Shown here: piece after piece, positions 44,768 to 63,955 of the stretch
Layout: every line of letters begins with the position of its first letter
Numbering within the stretch: the stretch's first letter is position 1
Assembly (NCBI RefSeq): GCF_000165425.1
Contig: NW_001799017.1
Span: forward strand, 160,908-224,907
DNA length: 64,000 bases
From: Paramecium tetraurelia
Lineage: Eukaryota; Ciliophora; Oligohymenophorea; Peniculida; Parameciidae
Direction of reading: 5' to 3'
The notes under the pieces: generated by a model
Databases searched by the model: none
Told to the model about the DNA's origin: nothing
What the model saw: the letters and a program-made list of their open reading frames with translations, nothing else
Program-made: the position numbers and the translations under genes

Positions 44768-46027
44768 ATGATAAAATATCCAAATGTATATTTATATGAA
44801 AAATTGAATCAATTAACTTTTATTTGAACTAGTAATCTATTAAATGATTTGATTTGATACAAGGTCATTATAGATTCCAATTCTAATCTCTTTTAAGAAT
44901 TAGATTTTTCAAAAAGAGAAAATTAGGTCAAAGTGATAAACAAGATAATTGAGAAATAATAATAAGCATTAGAATTAATTTTTACAGAAGAACTTGAAAA
45001 TTAGTAAAAGGAATAAGAAGGACAAATCTAGAAGTTGGTAGGAATTATAGTAAAGTGATCAAATACAAAAGTTGTCAAATGAGAACAGCTAAGGGGGAAA
45101 GAGTAACCAAATGGAGATTTAAAACATAATATTGCTGCCCCAGTCAAATTGTAGTTGTAGAAGGAGGTTTCAGACAAAATAGAAGCTTGGAATACTCTCG
45201 ATGATACTTAGAGCTTAATCCATGATTATCAGGATTGTACTTAGGACTAATTTTATACTACATAAGATGTTTAAACTCCATAAGAAAATGAATAACTAAA
45301 GTCAGATTAAAATTAATTGATGCCTTAATCAATTCTTACTAAAAAGAAAAAGAAATAAAAAAAATCTAAAGTTTCATCTGTCAAAGAGAAGTCTGTTCGA
45401 TTCGCAGATAATATTAGCCAAAAAGAGAAAAATATCAAATAAGCATAAAAAATAAAATTTGACACTGATAACAACGAATTTCTAAAAGAAACTTTGTAAA
45501 ATGAAGAGTTAGACGAGCTAGAAGATGAAGATGAAACTATCAAACTCAATGAAGAGAACACTCAAATAGAGGATGCTGATTAGTAAGATGATATAGATGA
45601 AAACGAAGATGAAGATGATAATGAAGAAAGTTAAAATGAAAATGATGAAGAAGAGGAAGAGGAAGAGGAAGAGGAAGAGGAAGAGGAAGAGGAAGAGGAA
45701 GAGGAAGAGGAAAATGAAGAAGATGATATTGAAGGTGAAAATGGAGAAGAGGAAGAGGAAGAAGAGGAAGAAGAAGAATAAGAGGAAGAAGAGGATGAAG
45801 AAGAGTAAGAGGAGGAAGATTAAGAAGAAGAGTAAGAGGATGAAGATTAAGAAGAAGAGTAAGAGGATGAAGATGCTAATGATGACTTAGATGAGGATGA
45901 TTAAGAAGAGGATATTGAAGAAAACGAAAACTCTAATGAAGAAATAGATATATCTCATAAAGAAGATTATGAGAACTAAAAAATATTATAGAGATTAAAA
46001 GAAAAAGCTCTTCAGAAAAAGTTTTGA
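44768..46027 (+). pseudogene. Acidic-tailed protein gene with four in-frame TGA
   Basis: From ATG 44768 (MIKYPNVYLYEKLNQLTFI) one frame of 420 codons reaches TGA 46025. It is interrupted by TGA at 44825, 44855, 45056 and 45080. The body is helical (QVKVINKIIEKQQQALELIF, prefoldin- or coiled-coil-like), then basic (ILTKKKKQKKSKVSSVKEK), and ends in a Glu/Asp/Gln tail of over 100 residues with a near-perfect (GAAGAG)n run at about 45649-45714. A 39-nt intron (45050-45088) would remove the last two TGAs in frame; the first two are not explained. Either unusual introns or decay. Confidence 0.5.
45649..45714. repeat. (GAAGAG)n microsatellite inside the acidic tail
   Basis: About 11 copies of a 6-bp GAAGAG/GAGGAA unit coding Glu-Glu. 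Continues imperfectly to about 45900 with GAT/TAA variants. Prone to length change without frame loss because the unit is two codons. Confidence 0.85.
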
Positions 46028-46645: not shown

Positions 46646-47512
46646 ATGAAGACAAAGCACAATGAATATATTGTAATAGTTGAGCAATATGACGGAAGAA
46701 AATTGAAGAAAATGACATATGAATTTACAGTTTGCGAGTTTAATGACTTAGTATTAGAAAGAATTACATCAAAATAAAATATAATGAAAAGATAATTAGT
46801 AAGTTTTGTGGCTCGTTTTGTAAAACAGCATCCATAGCTACAAGTAAAGACCCCTTTTTGTTAACATGAACACGTAAACAATATTTTATGAGTTAGGGTT
46901 GTTTGTATAATGTTTTAGAGGGACTGGTGAGATCTTTTGGAATAGCATATACAATGAAAGCACTTTTTGGATTGATTTCTGCTTTGTTATCTAAAAATAA
47001 GAAAATCAGCAAGGGTAGTTTAATTTTAGAAGCATTTATTGGAATAGATACATTGAAATTTGCATCATTTCCTACTGTCTATTCATTAATACAAAAGACC
47101 ATAATTTGTGGATGCAGACATATGACACAACAAGATCTAAAAATCATGTCTTTTGTGTCTGGATTTAGTGCTGGATTTGTGAGCTTAAGTTTAATAGAAG
47201 AAAGTAAGAGAAAGAATTGGGCTTTGTATTTGCTGACAAGATCAATGGATACTATGTTTAATTCATTAATAAATAAAAATATAGTTGCAAAACGAAGCTA
47301 TTATTACATCATTTTTATGGGTAATTTATAGCATAATTTCAATAGCAATTGAGGTTTTGGTGACAGCTTATGCATTTGGTTGCGAAAATGATTGCTTAGA
47401 GGACTATATGTTGAAGTTTTATGCTAGATTTGGTAATGAGAATCAATGTGAATTGGACGAAAGGAAATGTTGGCATGAGAGAGTAAGAAGGCAGTTCGAA
47501 AATAAATAATGA
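46646..47512 (+). CDS. TMEM135-like membrane protein
   Basis: About 270 residues. The N-terminal half includes KTPFCQHEHGCLYNVLEGLV then RSFGIAYTMKALFGLISALL, which matches the Cys/His and Y-KA pattern at the start of the TMEM135 domain. The later MSFVSGFSAGFVSLSLIEES and NWALYLLTRSMDTMFNSL match its AGFLAG and ALYLLxRxLE blocks. Introns at about 46874-46896 and 47320-47344. TMEM135 is a Tim17-related protein affecting mitochondrial dynamics and peroxisomal metabolism in animals; location in ciliates is unknown. Ends 11 nt from the convergent coiled-coil gene. Confidence 0.75.
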
Positions 47513-47523
47513 TATTATGATTT

Positions 47524-48664
47524 TCAATATTATCGGCCACCAGTTCTACTAGCTCTTGTATTCGATTATTAAACAGTGGTAGTTTTTTCAGTTGTAGTAA
47601 TAGTTTTTTATTTTTTCAAAGAATCCAATTCAGCTTATGCCATCATCCATTATTCTTAAGCAGTATGAAAATCTTAATTTGCTTTCATGAATCTTTCTTT
47701 CCAAATATCTGCTTCATTGGAATAATATTTCATTTTCTCTGTGGTTTATTGAAATTCACTCATTTCTTGTTCTAATTGTCGAATCATCTATTTATATTAT
47801 GCAATTTCTTAATCTTTGTTCCTAATAAATTGATTGAAAAAGTTACTAAATTAATCTCATGTAATTTTGCATCTCCACATTTTAAGAATTTAATGCATTT
47901 TCCAATTTCAAGATTTACCTTTCTTTTTCTGCTAAAGCATCCCTTAATTATCTGACTTCTTCCCCACCTTAAAGTAGTTGTTGAAATTCTTATTGCAATT
48001 TTGAATATCTCTATCTCCAAGAGTCGATTTCACTTTATTGACTTTCTATTTCTTTTCGCAAGCCATCCTCAATATCCTTCATCATTTTGATTTTTGCTTC
48101 CAATTCTCTCACTTAAAATTCTTCATTTGATGTCACCTTCAATTCTTATCCTTAATTCTTATATCTGGCTAATTCAGTTTACAAATCGAATATTTTAATT
48201 TCTAATTCAACACATTTCTTTTTCCAGGGCTCTTCTACATCTTCAACAGAGAGGACTTACAATTCTCTTTCGACATGATACATCTCATTAATTTCAGGTT
48301 ACTAAGGAGGAGGTGGAGCAGTAACAATAGGTTATTGAGGTTGAACAATTATAGTTTATTATGGAGGTGCAACTATTGGTTATTAATATTAAGGTATTTT
48401 ATATTCATGAGTGTGATGCCTATATAATTTATTGTTAATGTACATGTGGTGTTATTGGATAGTTTTGACATGTTGATTTGATTATGTATACATCTGACTT
48501 TATGCTGCTTGTTATTAATATACCATTGAAGGTTAAGGTTATATCATCTTCATTTAGATAGGTGATTAAAATTGCTAAGGAGGCAGCCTTTAATTTGTTT
48601 AAGTCTATTATTAGTATAAAACAGATTGAACAGGAAGTTAGGGATATTAATTGTTCGTTAACAT
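47524..48664 (-). CDS. Pro/Gln-rich N-terminus with coiled coil
   Basis: ATG 48664, about 370 residues. The first 130 are Gln/Pro/Tyr/His-rich (VAPPQQTIIVQPQQPIV, TAPPPPQQ) and look disordered. From about residue 135 an unbroken coiled coil runs to near the end (ELEIKIFDLQTELARYKNQ, IRQLEQEMSEFQQ), closing with a short Thr/Ser/Arg tail (ASRTGGRQY). One 25-nt intron (about 47828-47852). This layout resembles cortical or epiplasmic cytoskeletal proteins of ciliates, but no diagnostic repeat is visible, so the role is open. Confidence 0.75.
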
Positions 48665-49058
48665 TAATTAATTATAAATAATTAATTTTAGAAGAAATTC
48701 ATTTACAAATTAATTCTACTGATTTATATAAAGAATAGGATTTGATTGAGATTGTCAACTACTAATCCCAGATTCATGGACTCAGAGTCTTTGAGTTTAA
48801 TACATCATTAAGTTGGATTAGCTGGTTATATTCTCTTTGTCCTTTCTTCATAGCTGAACAATGTATACATCTTTTCAAAAACTCTTATCATCCCTCATAA
48901 TTCTTATTTATTAAGGAAAGGTAATCTATCAATGATAATCCATTGCAAATATTTACATAAATAAAATTTGAATTCATTTACCAAAGTTTAGTAGAATTTC
49001 TTCATAATAGAATATAATTTGTATGATATATTTTTCAATATAATCATTAATTTAAATA
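48665..49058. other. Intergenic, no gene seen
   Basis: AT-rich with stops in all frames; holds the divergent 5' flanks of the coiled-coil gene and the ART-like gene. Confidence 0.4.
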
Positions 49059-50906
49059 ATGTTATCCCTATATTGGTTAGGAAGCTTCATATTTTTTGTT
49101 ATTCTTATTGCTATTGCTAGATTTATATACTATAGAATATAGGACCAGGGAATGTAAAGATTCCATAATGAATAGACAAATGAAATAAATCCAGATATTG
49201 AAAGTGAAGTGAAAAGAAAGGAGTAGGAAAGACTTGAAGAGGAAAAAAAGAAGTAGGAAAGACTTGAAGAGGAAAGAAAGAAGTAGGAAAGACTTGAAGC
49301 GGAAAAAAAGAAGTAGGAAAAACTTGAAGAGGAAAGAAAGGAGTAGGAAAGACTTGAAGCGGAAAAAAAGAAGTAGGAAAAACTTGAAGAGGAAAGAAAG
49401 GAGTAGGAAAGACTTGAAGAGGAAAAAAAGAAGTAGGAAAAACTTGAAGAGGAAAGAAAGAAGTAGGAAAGACTTGAGGAAAAAAAGAAGTAGGAAAGAC
49501 TTGAAGCGGAAAAAAAGAAGTAGGAAAAACTTGAAGAGGAAAGAAAGAAGTAGGAAAGACTTGAGGAAAAAAAGAAGTAGGAAAGACTTGAAGAGTAAAG
49601 AAAGGAGTAGGAAAGACTTGAGGAAAAAAAGAAGTAGGAAAGACTAAGAATTAAAGAAGAAAGTTAAAAGCAATTAATGCAATAAGAGTTATAACCAATA
49701 AGTTATTAATTTAAGATATAATAAGAAATTAGTACTAAACCAGTTTAGCAATAAATATAAATATTAAACTCTGAAATAAAAAAAATCGATAATAATAATA
49801 ATCTTTCGAATAATAAGAAATAATATTATAAACATTAATACCAATAATAACTAGTTTAAAAATTAAAAGATTAAGGCGATGCTAAATCAATTCCCCATGT
49901 AAGATAGAATATTGATTCTTCAAACCCTGAAGTGGCACTTTTTGTTCTAAAAGAATCATTATTAAGAGATTAAAATAGAGAATTATTAACAACTAGTCAA
50001 GAATATTCATTTGGATTTGATTCAATAATAGGATCTTATGGCTCAGAATAATCTTGTTTAAAAGTTAGAAATAAAAAATTTGATTATGATAAAATTATGA
50101 ATGACAATCAAATATTACAATAACATTTATTAGATTTTTAATAAAAACTATCAAGTTCACTTAATATTTCAATTGATTAAATTGAAATTTTAGGAGTATC
50201 AAAGGGAAGCTTTGAAATTAGTTTTAATATTACCGGTATTGACAAGGATTAAATTTTAAAAGAGATTAACGATAATAAAAATGCAAAGAAATTCTTAAAT
50301 GAATATTGTAATGGCAAAGTTGAATACCTACAATATTTTGATAGTGCCAAAAATTCAGCAAAAGGAGTAACTCTTTCTTCAGATGATTTTAGTCCTAAAT
50401 ACAATAGGAATTGGGATGGTTTTCATGAGAAAGAATAGAGAGGACCTTCATATCATAGATATGATTATTATTTTCCTAGAGGTTGCTATGGATTTGGGTT
50501 AAACATAAAAAAGTATGGAAATGATGATTGGGTAAAAATAAATGGCAATATTAATGAATGGAGAATTCTGTATCATGGTACTAACCAAGTTGCTGTTAAT
50601 CCAATTGTGAGAGATAATTTAACTGCAGGGGGTGGATAGTTTTACAAAGATGATGAATGTATAAATGAGTTTGGAAAGAAAGTTAAAGTTGGAAAAGGAA
50701 TTTATTTTTCCGATAAAATATCAGTTTCTAAAGAATATTCACCTCCTATCTAGACAGGAAATAAGAGATTTAGTATTTATTTCATGTCTAGAGTAAACCC
50801 AAAAAAAATTAGATAAAGTGATAGGATGAAATAAAAAAATTATTTTGTAGTTAATAGCTCAGAAGATGTTAGATCATATAGAATTCTAATTTAGGAAGAT
50901 TTATGA
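49059..50906 (+). CDS. Membrane-anchored ADP-ribosyltransferase-like protein with tandem repeats
   Basis: An intronless 615-codon frame. Residues 5-25 form one membrane helix (LYWLGSFIFFVILIAIARF). Residues about 50-196 are tandem 8-10-residue repeats of the QERLEEEKKK type, a charged single helix or coiled coil. The C-terminal domain has WRILYHGT (His506), VGKGIYFSD (Tyr549) and YFVVN...VRSYRILIQ, the order and spacing of an ART/PARP fold. Where PARPs have the catalytic Glu before Tyr there is Asn594, so activity is doubtful or altered. The substrate is unknown. A shorter gene with a similar start (TM, then charged stretch) lies at 56842-57420. Confidence 0.75.
49207..49646. repeat. In-frame coding minisatellite
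   Basis: About 15 tandem copies of a 30-bp unit (with 24- and 27-bp variants) of the aagtaggaaagacttgaa type, alternating GAGGAA and GCGGAA versions in a higher-order pattern. All lengths are multiples of three, so copy changes keep the ART-like gene in frame. The pattern suggests recent unequal exchange or slippage. Confidence 0.9.
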
Positions 50907-51311
50907 AATAATTGTTAATAATAAAATTTTACTATTCAAATGTAATTACCTTAAATATATGATATAAATTTAATAATTGATTAAATCTTTTATTCTCTTA
51001 AAGAATCTTTTTGTTTATCGTTACTGAATCTTTTTTAAATGATATCATTTATAAGAGACACTACGATGAAAGAAAAACACAAGGTTCAATCCAAAAAACA
51101 TAATTTTAAAATTAAAACATATAAAAGAAAAATTTTTTCAATCATTATTAATTTCTAATTTTTTAAAGTATATTGTTTCTTAAAAACACAGCAGTTTTAA
51201 AACTGTTTCAATCAAATCGATCTATTGAAAAGGAATTGCGTATTTTTTAAATTTTTATAACTATCGAAAGTAGATTGCTTTTCTTTTCTAAGAACTTTAG
51301 TTATATAAAAT
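50907..51311. other. Intergenic, no gene seen
   Basis: AT-rich flank after the ART-like gene. Confidence 0.4.
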
Positions 51312-51482
51312 ATGTTGAGAAATAAATTAATGTTGAAATTACTAATTGAAAGTGTAATTTTTAGTTCAATAATCTATTTAATAGTTAATGCATAATTAGA
51401 TAATGGTAATTTTAAATAAGTTAATTACGGATGTTCTAAAATTGAAAGGACCAATCATAAATATGTAACTTTTAAATTTTGA
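51312..51482 (+). CDS. Possible small secreted protein
   Basis: A 56-codon frame starting MLRNKLMLKLLIESVIFSSI then YLIVNAQLDNGN, which reads as a signal peptide with an AxA-like cleavage site (VNA). It is too short for a domain. It could be the first exon of a longer gene. Plausible but unproven; 51483-51944 shows nothing further. Confidence 0.35.
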
Positions 51483-51944
51483 CTCTAATTTATAGTATTG
51501 AATGAGGAGTCATAAAATGTTGTTTTGTTTTTCTTCAAAGAAACAAACACACTTAAAATATCTTTATTATACATTCAAGCTAAGTTAAAAACTTAACAAT
51601 ATGCAACATCTTCTAACCTTGCATATTTCTCATAATTTTAATAAGATTCTCAATTACAATAAGGCTTCGCCTATCAACTATATATAGAAGGAAAATATAA
51701 AATATAAGAGATTTTTCATTTTTGTAATACTTCTTCCATTGCTAAATCAATACGAATGTTCAACTTGAAGATAAGCATACAGAAATCATTCACTGAAACT
51801 CAATCAGAGAATTAAAAATACTAAATAAGGAATTGCTCACTAAGCTATAGATTTTATAATAATAGTAATAATGACATGCATATTTAATTATACTAATATT
51901 TGATTGTTAATTTATTTAAATTTAAAACCGGTTAATTTGATAGA

Positions 51945-54286
<2,342 letters not shown>

Positions 54287-54318: not shown

Positions 54319-56787
54319 TCAAATTTAGCTAAAATCATTATTAATAAATGACCATCCATTAATATAATTAATAGAACTAGACTTGTCAGCTGATAATATA
54401 AAGTCAAAAGGGATGTCAAATTTTTAATTTAAAATCTCCTAATTAATAATTGGTTAAGGAGGTTTATATTTTCTATTGTAATAGTTTCAAATATCATTAC
54501 TTTTGTAATAGATCATCCCAATTAATTTACCTAAAAAAAGGATGATCTTTTATTTCATCAGCATCTCTCGATGAAGCACCCAACCTAATCATAGGGTTTT
54601 TCTCTAAAAGCGATTAAATTATTGATTTGCATTCTTTTGAAATATTGTCTGGAAATGTGATCTTATTGCATTCAATATTATTCAACATTTCATCTCTATT
54701 TGGTGAAAAATATGGAGGTTTCCCACTAATCATTTCGTAGAGTAGAATACCTAATTAATATATATAATTCAATACCTAGATGATACCAATCAACAGCTCG
54801 CCCATGTCCTACTCGTTTCAACATTTCTGGAGCCAAATAAGCCATGGATCCACAGAAACTTTTAGCTCCATAATTATCTCTAACTCCTTCTTTTGATAAT
54901 CCAAAATCAGTTAACATAGCATGACCTTGTGTATCAATAACTATATTTTCCGGTTTTAAATCTCTATATATTATATCATTTTTATGAAGGTGTTCTAAAG
55001 CTGTCAGTATTTCTGCAATATACAATTTAGCTGCTTATTCTGGAATTCTTTTTTAATTTTAAATAATTTTAGATAAATCTCCACCTGGACAGAAATCCAT
55101 CAATAAACACAAATGAGTATTAGTTTAAAAAGCAAATCTTAATTTAACAATGTATGGATGATTTAAATAAGATAGGATATTCCTTTCAGCCATAGCATAT
55201 CTTATTAAATTATGACCTAAAAATTTACTTTTTGGTAAAACTTTCATTGCATACTTTTATCCTTATGCAGTTTTACTTTAATTCCTTTTCTCAACTAAAT
55301 ATACATCTCCAAACGAACCTTTACCTATTTGTAATATAATTCTTATATTCAAGGGACCTATCATTTCACTTTCATTTAGTTATGACTATTATTTAATACT
55401 CAATTACAACTTGATTAAGTGTTGAACGATTGGATGTAGAAAATTAGTTATCAGTCTGATATGGCGAATAACATTTTGAAGTTTGTTGATACTGATTTGT
55501 TAGGTAATATTATTATTTACTAGTTGGGGAATTGACTTTCTATTAATCTTTGGAATCATCATAGATTTAAACCTTATGACATTGGTTGAATGATTCCTTT
55601 TTCATCTTAAAAAAATTTAAACCAACAAATACCCTATAATGTTTTTCAATAAGATTTTTTAGAGTAGAATTATTTTATATTAATTCAACAGGAGATTTAT
55701 TATCCAAATTCTTTTAATTTAGCTGCAAAGATGGTCTTGCCAAAAGTATTTCTGCTATTCTAATATGTTCTAATAAAGAATAAATAAACTATTGATACAA
55801 AATAAACAAGCGTAATGTAATGCTGTATTTTGATGATTATCTATATGATTGATATCAGATCCTATAGTTAATAATAGAGTAGCAATAGAATCACATCCAT
55901 TTTAAGCACAAATGATTAACGGCGTTTATCCTTGAGCATTGATTGAATCACAATCTGCTTCATTTTTTAGTAGTAAGAGTGATAAGTCATAGTTTTAGTT
56001 TAGACAACTGTAATGAATTGAAGCAAATCCTATTGATATTATAATATATCTGATACCATTGTCATCTTTAATATTGATTTCTGGTTTCAAGTCTTTAGTA
56101 GGAATCTCTAATAATTTTTCTATTTCCTTGATGTTGTTCTGTTTGACATTGAGTATTAGAAAGTGATTGTTTTCCCTTTTTTATTACCACCAACCTTGCC
56201 ATGCTGATTTATGTCTTTTTTTCAATTTGGCCATATATTCTTTATTAACCTGAATCTTATCGACTTATCTAATATCATAGACAGTTCCTGTTGTAATAAG
56301 TAGAATTTGAAACCTGTGTCTTGATCTTTAAGAAGGAACATTTCGTCATTGAATTTCTATTCATATAAATTAACTGGAGCTGTATTTGTATGAAAATGCG
56401 AGATACGTATGTTGGATGATTGATTCTACTATGCAGTTTCATTGAATATGTTTGCAACTTACTCAAAACCTGTGGAGTTTTTAGAGCCCCTAGATTTATT
56501 GCTGTTACAATTAGAAAGGCTTCCCTAAGAACTTTATTTTTAATGACTACTTTAATTGAGTTTAAATACTATTAATCAGATTAATATTATTTAGTTCTCA
56601 TCATAGTCTGCTCTGCATATAATTTATTATTCATTGCTGATGGTGCTCTTGGAATTTCAGTTTTCTTGTTCATTGTATTTAAAGTTGGAGTAGCTGCTTC
56701 ATTTTATTTTCTGAATGTAGATTAATATTGAATAGGACAAGTGGCATCTCTAGGTGTATTGATTGGTAAAATTGGATGCTTTTGCAT
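54319..56787 (-). CDS. Ankyrin-repeat / AGC protein kinase fusion
   Basis: N-terminal 200 residues include a Ser/Asn-rich stretch and a short globular part. Then 3-4 ankyrin repeats (GFASIHYSCLN, QGQTPLIICAQNGCDSIATLLL, NTALHYACLF). The kinase follows: GKGSFGDVYLV, YAMKVL (Lys), IYRDLKPENIVI, TDFGLSKEG, activation-loop KSFCGSMAYLAPEM and GHGRAVDWYHLGILLYEM. The C-terminus has an AGC tail (NWDDLLQKKYKPP) and a hydrophobic motif (WSFINNDFS). The fold and motifs fit the S6K/SGK/PKA-like group. About seven short introns, ends TAG or AAG. Ankyrin plus AGC is an unusual domain mix. Residues of the catalytic core look intact, so it should be active. Confidence 0.9.
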
Positions 56788-56841: not shown

Positions 56842-57420
56842 TCATCTAATATTTGTTATCATTTACATATATTTGATCGATTCCATTAAGCTCTAATAAG
56901 ATGATCTCATATGTTAATTATAGGTTTGAGAATATTGTCCTAAAACTAAATTATTATTAATTTTATCGAATTTTTACTTTTTATTATTTACTTTATATTC
57001 ATATTTGAAGAACTGAAACCATTGTCCATAATCTAAGATATATATAATTAATTTTTTGAAATAAAATTACCATTTTTCGGGGTTAAAACAATAAATAAGT
57101 CTCAGATTATAAGTAAAACATGTAATGGCTTAGAAAAGAACCTGGTTTTCACCTTATTTCAACATTTTTTAAAGAAAGACTTGAACTTTTTCTCTTTTCT
57201 TATTCGATTTTTCTTTTTTCTTCATCCTCAAGTTCTTATTTTCTTTATTATTATTTTGTTAGCCAATTTATTCTTCTTGAATTCTTCTTCTATTTGCTTC
57301 TCCACTTAACAATCTCTTCCCTTCCTCCTCTTCAAGCTCCCTTTACCTTCTAATATTAAATAAGGTAGCAATAACAATTATTGACAATAAAGAGCTTCCT
57401 AAATATTAAAGAAAGCGCAT
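56842..57420 (-). CDS. Membrane-anchored basic protein, possible truncated relative of the ART-like gene
   Basis: ATG 57420 gives MRFLQYLGSSLLSIIVIATL, one membrane helix, followed by Arg/Glu/Lys-rich sequence (RRQRELEEEEGKRLL, NRRRIQEEQIGQQNNNKEN). The arrangement (short lumen end, helix at residues 5-22, charged run) resembles the ART-like protein at 49059, but there is no repeat array or ART domain. A TGA-free frame continues to 56842 with weaker, aromatic-rich composition. Either a real small gene or a truncated copy. Confidence 0.45.
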
Positions 57421-63900: not shown

Positions 63901-63910
63901 GTTGTATAAT

Positions 63911-63955
63911 GGGTTTGGGGTTTGGGTTGGGTTTGGGTTTGGGTTTGGGGTTGGG
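63911..63955 (+). repeat. Telomere-type repeat tract (mixed G3T3/G4T2)
   Basis: Forty-five bases of GGGTTT units mixed with GGGGTT and related variants. This mixture is the known signature of Paramecium telomeres. The G-rich strand runs 5' to 3' rightward, so a chromosome end would lie to the right. However 45 nt of unrelated sequence follow to the window end, so the tract is either internal or followed by a joined or mis-assembled piece. Confidence 0.85.

Follow-up and report, generated by a model that had tools for sequence, protein, structure and literature searches.

A putative membrane-anchored PARP-like protein with a minisatellite-coded charged stalk in Paramecium tetraurelia

The window, by which we mean the whole stretch of 64,000 nucleotides of Paramecium tetraurelia DNA analyzed here (contig NW_001799017.1, positions 160,908 to 224,907), carries at 49059-50906 a gene for a stalked protein, and this gene is real. 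We read its product as a membrane-anchored ciliate PARP-like protein, most likely an H-Y-Y (His-Tyr-Tyr) mono-ADP-ribosyltransferase as PARP16, with the domain carried on a long charged helix; we put the probability of this reading at roughly 0.55. The frame, the repeats, the motifs and the paralogues on which it is based were found directly in the DNA, and the helices are predicted. The gene has the following features:

49059..50906, forward strand: whole gene, 615 codons and a TGA stop, in the ciliate code (TAA and TAG read as Gln)
49062..49148, forward strand: N-terminal hydrophobic helix, residues 2-30, predicted membrane anchor (mean Kyte-Doolittle hydropathy 2.38; AlphaFold2 helix 2-30)
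49149..49190, forward strand: hinge between anchor and stalk, residues 31-44, of low confidence (non-helical in the model; predicted local distance difference test score, pLDDT, about 51)
49205..49645, forward strand: in-frame minisatellite, about 15 copies of 30 bp with three units of 27 bp (Tandem Repeats Finder, TRF)
49209..49661, forward strand: charged stalk, residues 51-201, rich in E, K, R and Q, within the model helix 45-224
49731..50336, forward strand: family-specific middle region, residues 225-426, with no relatives found outside the family
50364..50903, forward strand: PARP/ADP-ribosyltransferase (ART)-like domain, residues 436-615 (PF00644 for residues 320-615; paralogue alignments)
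50574..50576, forward strand: codon of His506, triad position 1, in YHGT
50703..50705, forward strand: codon of Tyr549, triad position 2, in GKGIYFS
50841..50843, forward strand: codon of Tyr595, most likely triad position 3 (family columns; comparison with the PARP16 strand)

Read with NCBI table 6, 49059-50906 of the forward strand is a single open frame of 615 aa in which 48 TAA or TAG codons stand for Gln, and the coordinates, strand and frame given in an earlier sequence-only reading of this DNA are thereby confirmed. That reading also called the gene intronless, which at the level of sequence is consistent with the DNA and with the family alignment. Around the gene (47000-53000), the longest frame in the bacterial code is at most 142 aa, whereas table 6 opens one of 615 aa; the window is thus ciliate DNA. 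An upstream ATG at 49023 would give a longer frame; however, we favor the start at 49059 because the paralogue L002 likewise has its ATG immediately before a hydrophobic stretch.

The array at 49205-49645 is far beyond chance (TRF period 30, 15.0 copies, 87% matches, score 665), and as its units are of 27 or 30 bp, the observed length steps preserve the frame. It codes for most of a stalk of 151 residues, comprising 56 E, 40 K, 19 R and 16 Q, with a hydrophobic fraction of 13%. In a single-sequence AlphaFold2 model of residues 1-235 alone, helices span residues 2-30 and 45-224, and block means of pLDDT are 94-96 over residues 61-200 but drop to 44-86 in those surrounding the helix ends. AlphaFold2 readily gives helix for such charged sequences, and this model is therefore supportive only. 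The minisatellite-coded charged helix of about 150 residues proposed from the sequence alone is nevertheless recovered, in the TRF array and in the predicted helix. The latter is charged, continuous and without a heptad core, as is looked for in a single alpha-helix (SAH). An excess of E to K/R pairs at i+4 is also expected of SAH domains; in residues 51-201 such an excess is absent at i+4 (19 pairs vs. 21.5 expected) and sits at i+3 (38 vs. 21.6 in shuffles, 0 of 2000 as high). Like charges are fewer than in shuffles at both spacings (27 vs. 42.5 at i+3; 33 vs. 42.1 at i+4).

The mean Kyte-Doolittle value is 2.38 over residues 1-19 and reaches only 0.68 in the best 19-residue stretch starting beyond residue 30 (at residue 377), which supports the N-terminal membrane helix of the sequence-only reading. 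The first charged residue is R21 and the next is R26; by the positive-inside rule, we therefore infer a cytosolic C-terminal part, and the protein beyond the anchor probably faces the cytosol. In its own genome (an assembly of 69.1 Mb in 231 contigs, with the window at the end of contig C64), the anchor region matched only itself at E <= 1. A Pfam match of the N-terminus to G0-G1_switch_2 (E = 0.016, below its cut-off) was put down to chance.

The C-terminal ART/PARP-like domain proposed earlier is supported at the sequence level by a match of PF00644 to residues 320-615 (E = 7e-7, 29.4 bits, cut-off 26.7). The His and Tyr positions had also been correctly located, at H506 and Y549, and both residues are invariant in all six rows of a family alignment, four of whose members match PF00644 at E <= 1. 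Pattern searches of viruses and prokaryotes with the family alignment gave 105 and 86 matches, none of them confirmed (plasmids and E. coli genomes lay outside this search), and with the single sequence no pattern match was found in viral contigs; no match was found in phages.

Across seven family rows, position 594 is occupied by N, Q, R, Q, R, H, N and position 595 by Y, Y, F, F, Y, Y, Y; column 596 is always Phe, and Glu occurs in neither of the first two columns. The H-Y-E triad of poly-ADP-ribose polymerases is thus not found here, the third position being Asn594 or Tyr595, and the earlier claim that the catalytic Glu is missing holds in all seven rows under either register. The same cannot be said of its placement of Asn594 at the Glu position, where the family columns and a comparison with PARP16 put Tyr595. 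For this comparison, last strands were slid ungapped along the family columns and their maxima compared with 3000 shuffles. The last strand of human PARP16, KYFVVTNNQLLRVKYLLVY (letters checked in PDB chain 4f0d_A), scores 31.6 with Tyr254 over Tyr595 (shuffle maxima of mean 6.1, s.d. 4.4; 0 of 3000 as high), that is, with an aromatic third residue in strand context, but this strand was selected for its resemblance, a choice of which the shuffle statistics take no account and which weighs against the result. In the Asn594 register it scores 9.0, and with column 594 variable Asn594 ranks behind Tyr595. The strands of PARP14, of two H-Y-E PARPs of the same genome (L024 and L041) and of L047 do not beat the shuffles (1277, 531, 350 and 1003 of 3000 as good, respectively). 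It is thus most likely that the third position is Tyr595 rather than Asn594. A triad of His506, Tyr549 and Tyr595 suggests a mono-ADP-ribosyltransferase of the PARP16 type; locally, the PARP16-like H-Y-Y assignment has good support, and orthology with PARP16 is not supported.

The search of the own genome gave 15 match rows, which merge into 11 family places including the window gene; the middle region gave 12 match rows, every one at family places. Against Pfam at E <= 10, the middle region of the window member found nothing, and those of four other members gave weak, scattered matches; nothing was found in the PDB at E <= 10. As judged from the printed frames and the overlaps of match rows, five places are uninterrupted over the searched part (the window gene, L002, L003, L004 and L006), five are split or contain TGA (L005, L007, L009/L010, L011 and L013/L014) and one (L008) is broken by a run of N. 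Some interruptions may be assembly errors. The triad His is retained at 9 of the 11 places. Among six copies including the interrupted L005, the ratio of nonsynonymous to synonymous substitution rates (dN/dS) is 0.25-0.48 in the ART domain and 0.29-0.74 in the middle region, in all 15 pairs in both cases; these values suggest that the copies evolve fast while under selection for function.

In L002, the N-terminus is hydrophobic (Kyte-Doolittle 2.0) and 137 residues form a charged run, which is encoded by 4.9 copies of a 69-bp unit (the array can also be read in units of 138 bp). The neighbor of L002, L005, has 2.8 copies of a unit resembling that repeat. Anchor and stalk are both missing from L004 and L006 and are therefore confined to some copies; in L003, whose frame has no Met within its first 120 residues, neither was found within the frame. 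The stalk arrays thus differ among paralogues in unit and copy number (30 bp in the window gene, 69 bp in L002), which lends no more than indirect support to the proposal of the sequence-only reading that reach varies with the number of repeats. Anchor and stalk may have a single origin in the family, a point left undecided by a nine-row tree, which unites the window gene, L002 and L005 in 0 of 200 bootstrap trees. Family places are clustered on C64 and C174. At L016:3993-4820, the copy L007 appears mosaic by eye, its middle being similar to L009 and its tail (VQTGNKKFSVYFMSRVNPRKL) to the window gene, a pattern that looks like one gene conversion would produce. Fast evolution, clustering and interrupted copies recall, as a lead by analogy, families in conflict with parasites.

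A number of observations weigh against the reading of an anchored PARP16-type enzyme. The PF00644 match includes both the His and the Tyr motif and extends no further than model position 119 of 199, short of the third-residue strand; its score, above the cut-off for residues 320-615, is slightly below it for the entire protein (25.8 bits), and at E <= 0.1 the profile detects just 2 of the 11 family places. A single-sequence model of residues 306-615 has a mean pLDDT of 38.5 and gives no fold support. The family profile has only weak matches in the PDB, headed not by a PARP but by an RNA 2'-phosphotransferase (E = 0.011; PARP15 0.067, PARP10 0.4), in a second profile search viral spike proteins come first (E about 0.4-0.5), and PARP16 is unlisted in both at E <= 10. 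The H-Y-E strands prefer Asn594: that of L024 scores 11.3 there vs. 9.1 at 595 (531 of 3000 shuffles equal), and that of L041 scores 12.6, with 595 outside its best three registers (<6.0; 350 of 3000 shuffles equal). Gapped local alignment to PARP16 is restricted to residues 594-615, the Tyr motif pairs in local alignment with the H-Y-E PARPs of the genome and with L047 but not with PARP16, and hhalign, run between the family and the remaining PARPs of this genome, pairs no more than the His and Tyr region (probabilities 32% and 66%). The interrupted copies L007 and L009 read YYGT, with Tyr in place of His. Finally, for PARP16 itself, a review gives H-Y-Y in its table and, in its text, isoleucine as the third residue (PMC9189837; this and the other papers are cited here for the passages used).

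Several of these results bear on alternatives. The ART-like domain could be a pseudoenzyme that binds NAD+, ADP-ribose or a partner without transfer, the protein then being a tethered binding module. We consider this rather unlikely, even with Glu absent from all seven rows, five of the 11 family places split or with stops (two of these without His) and dN/dS of the domain only moderate. The uninterrupted copies, on the other hand, retain His, Tyr and an aromatic third residue, and PARP16 is an H-Y-Y enzyme that is active (PMC3372510). A further possibility concerns the N-terminus, where the 20-residue hydrophobic start closes with AIA ahead of R21, so that a cleaved signal peptide is conceivable, at the expense of an anchor; the protein would then be a secreted or cell-surface ecto-ADP-ribosyltransferase. 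The hydrophobic start of L002, however, lacks such a site, and the absence of any hydrophobic start in L004 and L006 is consistent with a cytosolic domain, which makes secretion improbable.

It is also doubtful that the stalk is a dimerizing coiled coil in which the repeats fix the geometry of an oligomer rather than reach. Leu does recur every 9-10 residues, and the pairs at i+4 that are typical of lone helices are not enriched. But this spacing, one Leu per unit, is not that of heptads, the periodicity signal is slight at period 3.5 (0.10 vs. 0.72 at period 10), hydrophobic residues are few, and the enrichment of E to K/R pairs at i+3 and the depletion of like charges at i+3 and i+4 also argue against it.

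Under the favored reading of a membrane-anchored H-Y-Y enzyme, we infer its membrane location, orientation, enzymatic activity, stalk rigidity and length change. The N-terminal helix would anchor the protein in the membrane with the remainder cytosolic; a flexible hinge would be followed by a charged helix of 21 nm (its 140 confidently predicted residues) to 27 nm (all 180), taking 0.15 nm per residue, which would hold the middle region and the catalytic domain off the membrane, and targets within that radius would be modified. As the tandem array that encodes the helix is in frame, each unit gained or lost could shift the helix length by 9 to 10 residues and leave the downstream domain intact. 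A more speculative extension, which we hold to be unlikely as a whole, is that the family consists of tethered PARP16-type enzymes whose reach from the membrane is set by minisatellite copy number, with repeat units differing by paralogue (30 bp here, 69 bp in L002 and L005), and evolves by birth and death as in conflict with parasites or symbionts. If active, the protein would represent a tethered H-Y-Y ADP-ribosyltransferase with its membrane anchor at the other end from that of PARP16, and a natural case of enzyme reach able to evolve via in-frame repeats.

Elsewhere in the window, TTTGGG repeats resembling telomeres lie at 63910-63955 near the right end, with about 45 more bases to the end of the contig. 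A second repeat array, acidic (rich in E and D), is found at 45585-45909 within a separate frame (45320-46027). The reverse-strand frame 54690-55562 contains a protein kinase-like sequence, named by eye (DIIYRDLKPENIVID, TDFGLSKEG). A hydrophobic start that gives way to a charged segment (MRFLQYLGSSLLSIIVIATLFNIRRQRELEEEE) is seen again in another reverse-strand frame, 56842-57420, whose first 66 residues match nothing but themselves in this genome at E <= 0.1.

The genome also contains other PARPs. PF00644 gave 34 rows genome-wide at E <= 0.1, two of them at family places (C64 and C193) and the rest merging into 14 further places. A pattern for the canonical Glu strand matches at 8 of these 14, and C187 adds YEFIIYD in its frame; there is no strand match at C190, C200 and C155, and C28 and C19 have Ile or Val there. 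The canonical H-Y-E PARPs (L024, L025, L041 and others) resemble the family in the PF00644 His and Tyr motifs and differ in that Glu is retained and that most score far higher with PF00644.

Among known systems, the stalk resembles the SAH stalks of the drebrin type (PMC12203971) as a long charged helix predicted to stand alone, but is distinguished by its regular 30-bp array, its Leu in every unit and its charge pairs at i+3 instead of i+4. In Tetrahymena, PARP-like proteins with altered triads share an H/NNSK motif past the third residue, and in "clade 3D" this residue is Glu in one protein, Gln in one and Thr or Ser in one (Citarelli 2010, PMC2964712). By description, these are comparable to L009, with NNSK, and to the window protein, with NSSE after Tyr-Phe-Val-Val; unlike the latter, they have no known domain outside the catalytic one. 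Clade 3 PARPs with a transmembrane domain are described in a sponge, where it is N-terminal, and in Rhizaria, and a clade 3 protein of P. tetraurelia has a macrodomain (Perina 2014, PMC4245714). The former are similar, again by description, in combining a transmembrane segment with a PARP domain, and the sponge protein sets a precedent for a PARP domain with an N-terminal anchor; the passages on these proteins mention no stalk. Nor is a stalk described in the passages used from PMC2964712, PMC4245714, PMC3372510 and PMC9189837, or a stalked PARP in the titles and abstract openings listed for Paramecium or ciliate PARP and ADP-ribosylation literature.

PARP16 (ARTD15, clade 6) is a tail-anchored protein whose catalytic domain lies in the cytosol; it modifies itself, which its H152A/Y254A double mutant does not (PMC3372510). 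It is similar to the window protein in the strand of the third residue (KYFVVTNN vs. NYFVVNSS), in H-Y-Y and in having a membrane anchor. This likeness in sequence is confined to residues 594-615, and similarity across the whole catalytic domain was not found. PARP16 has a C-terminal tail anchor, of which the window protein shows none (best hydropathy after the N-terminus 0.68 over 19 residues), having instead an N-terminal anchor, a repeat-coded stalk and a different middle region. The comparison bears on the history of clade 6 type PARPs in chromalveolates, which are held to be lost there in one account (PMC2964712), whereas clade 6 is reported from all six supergroups in the other (PMC4245714).
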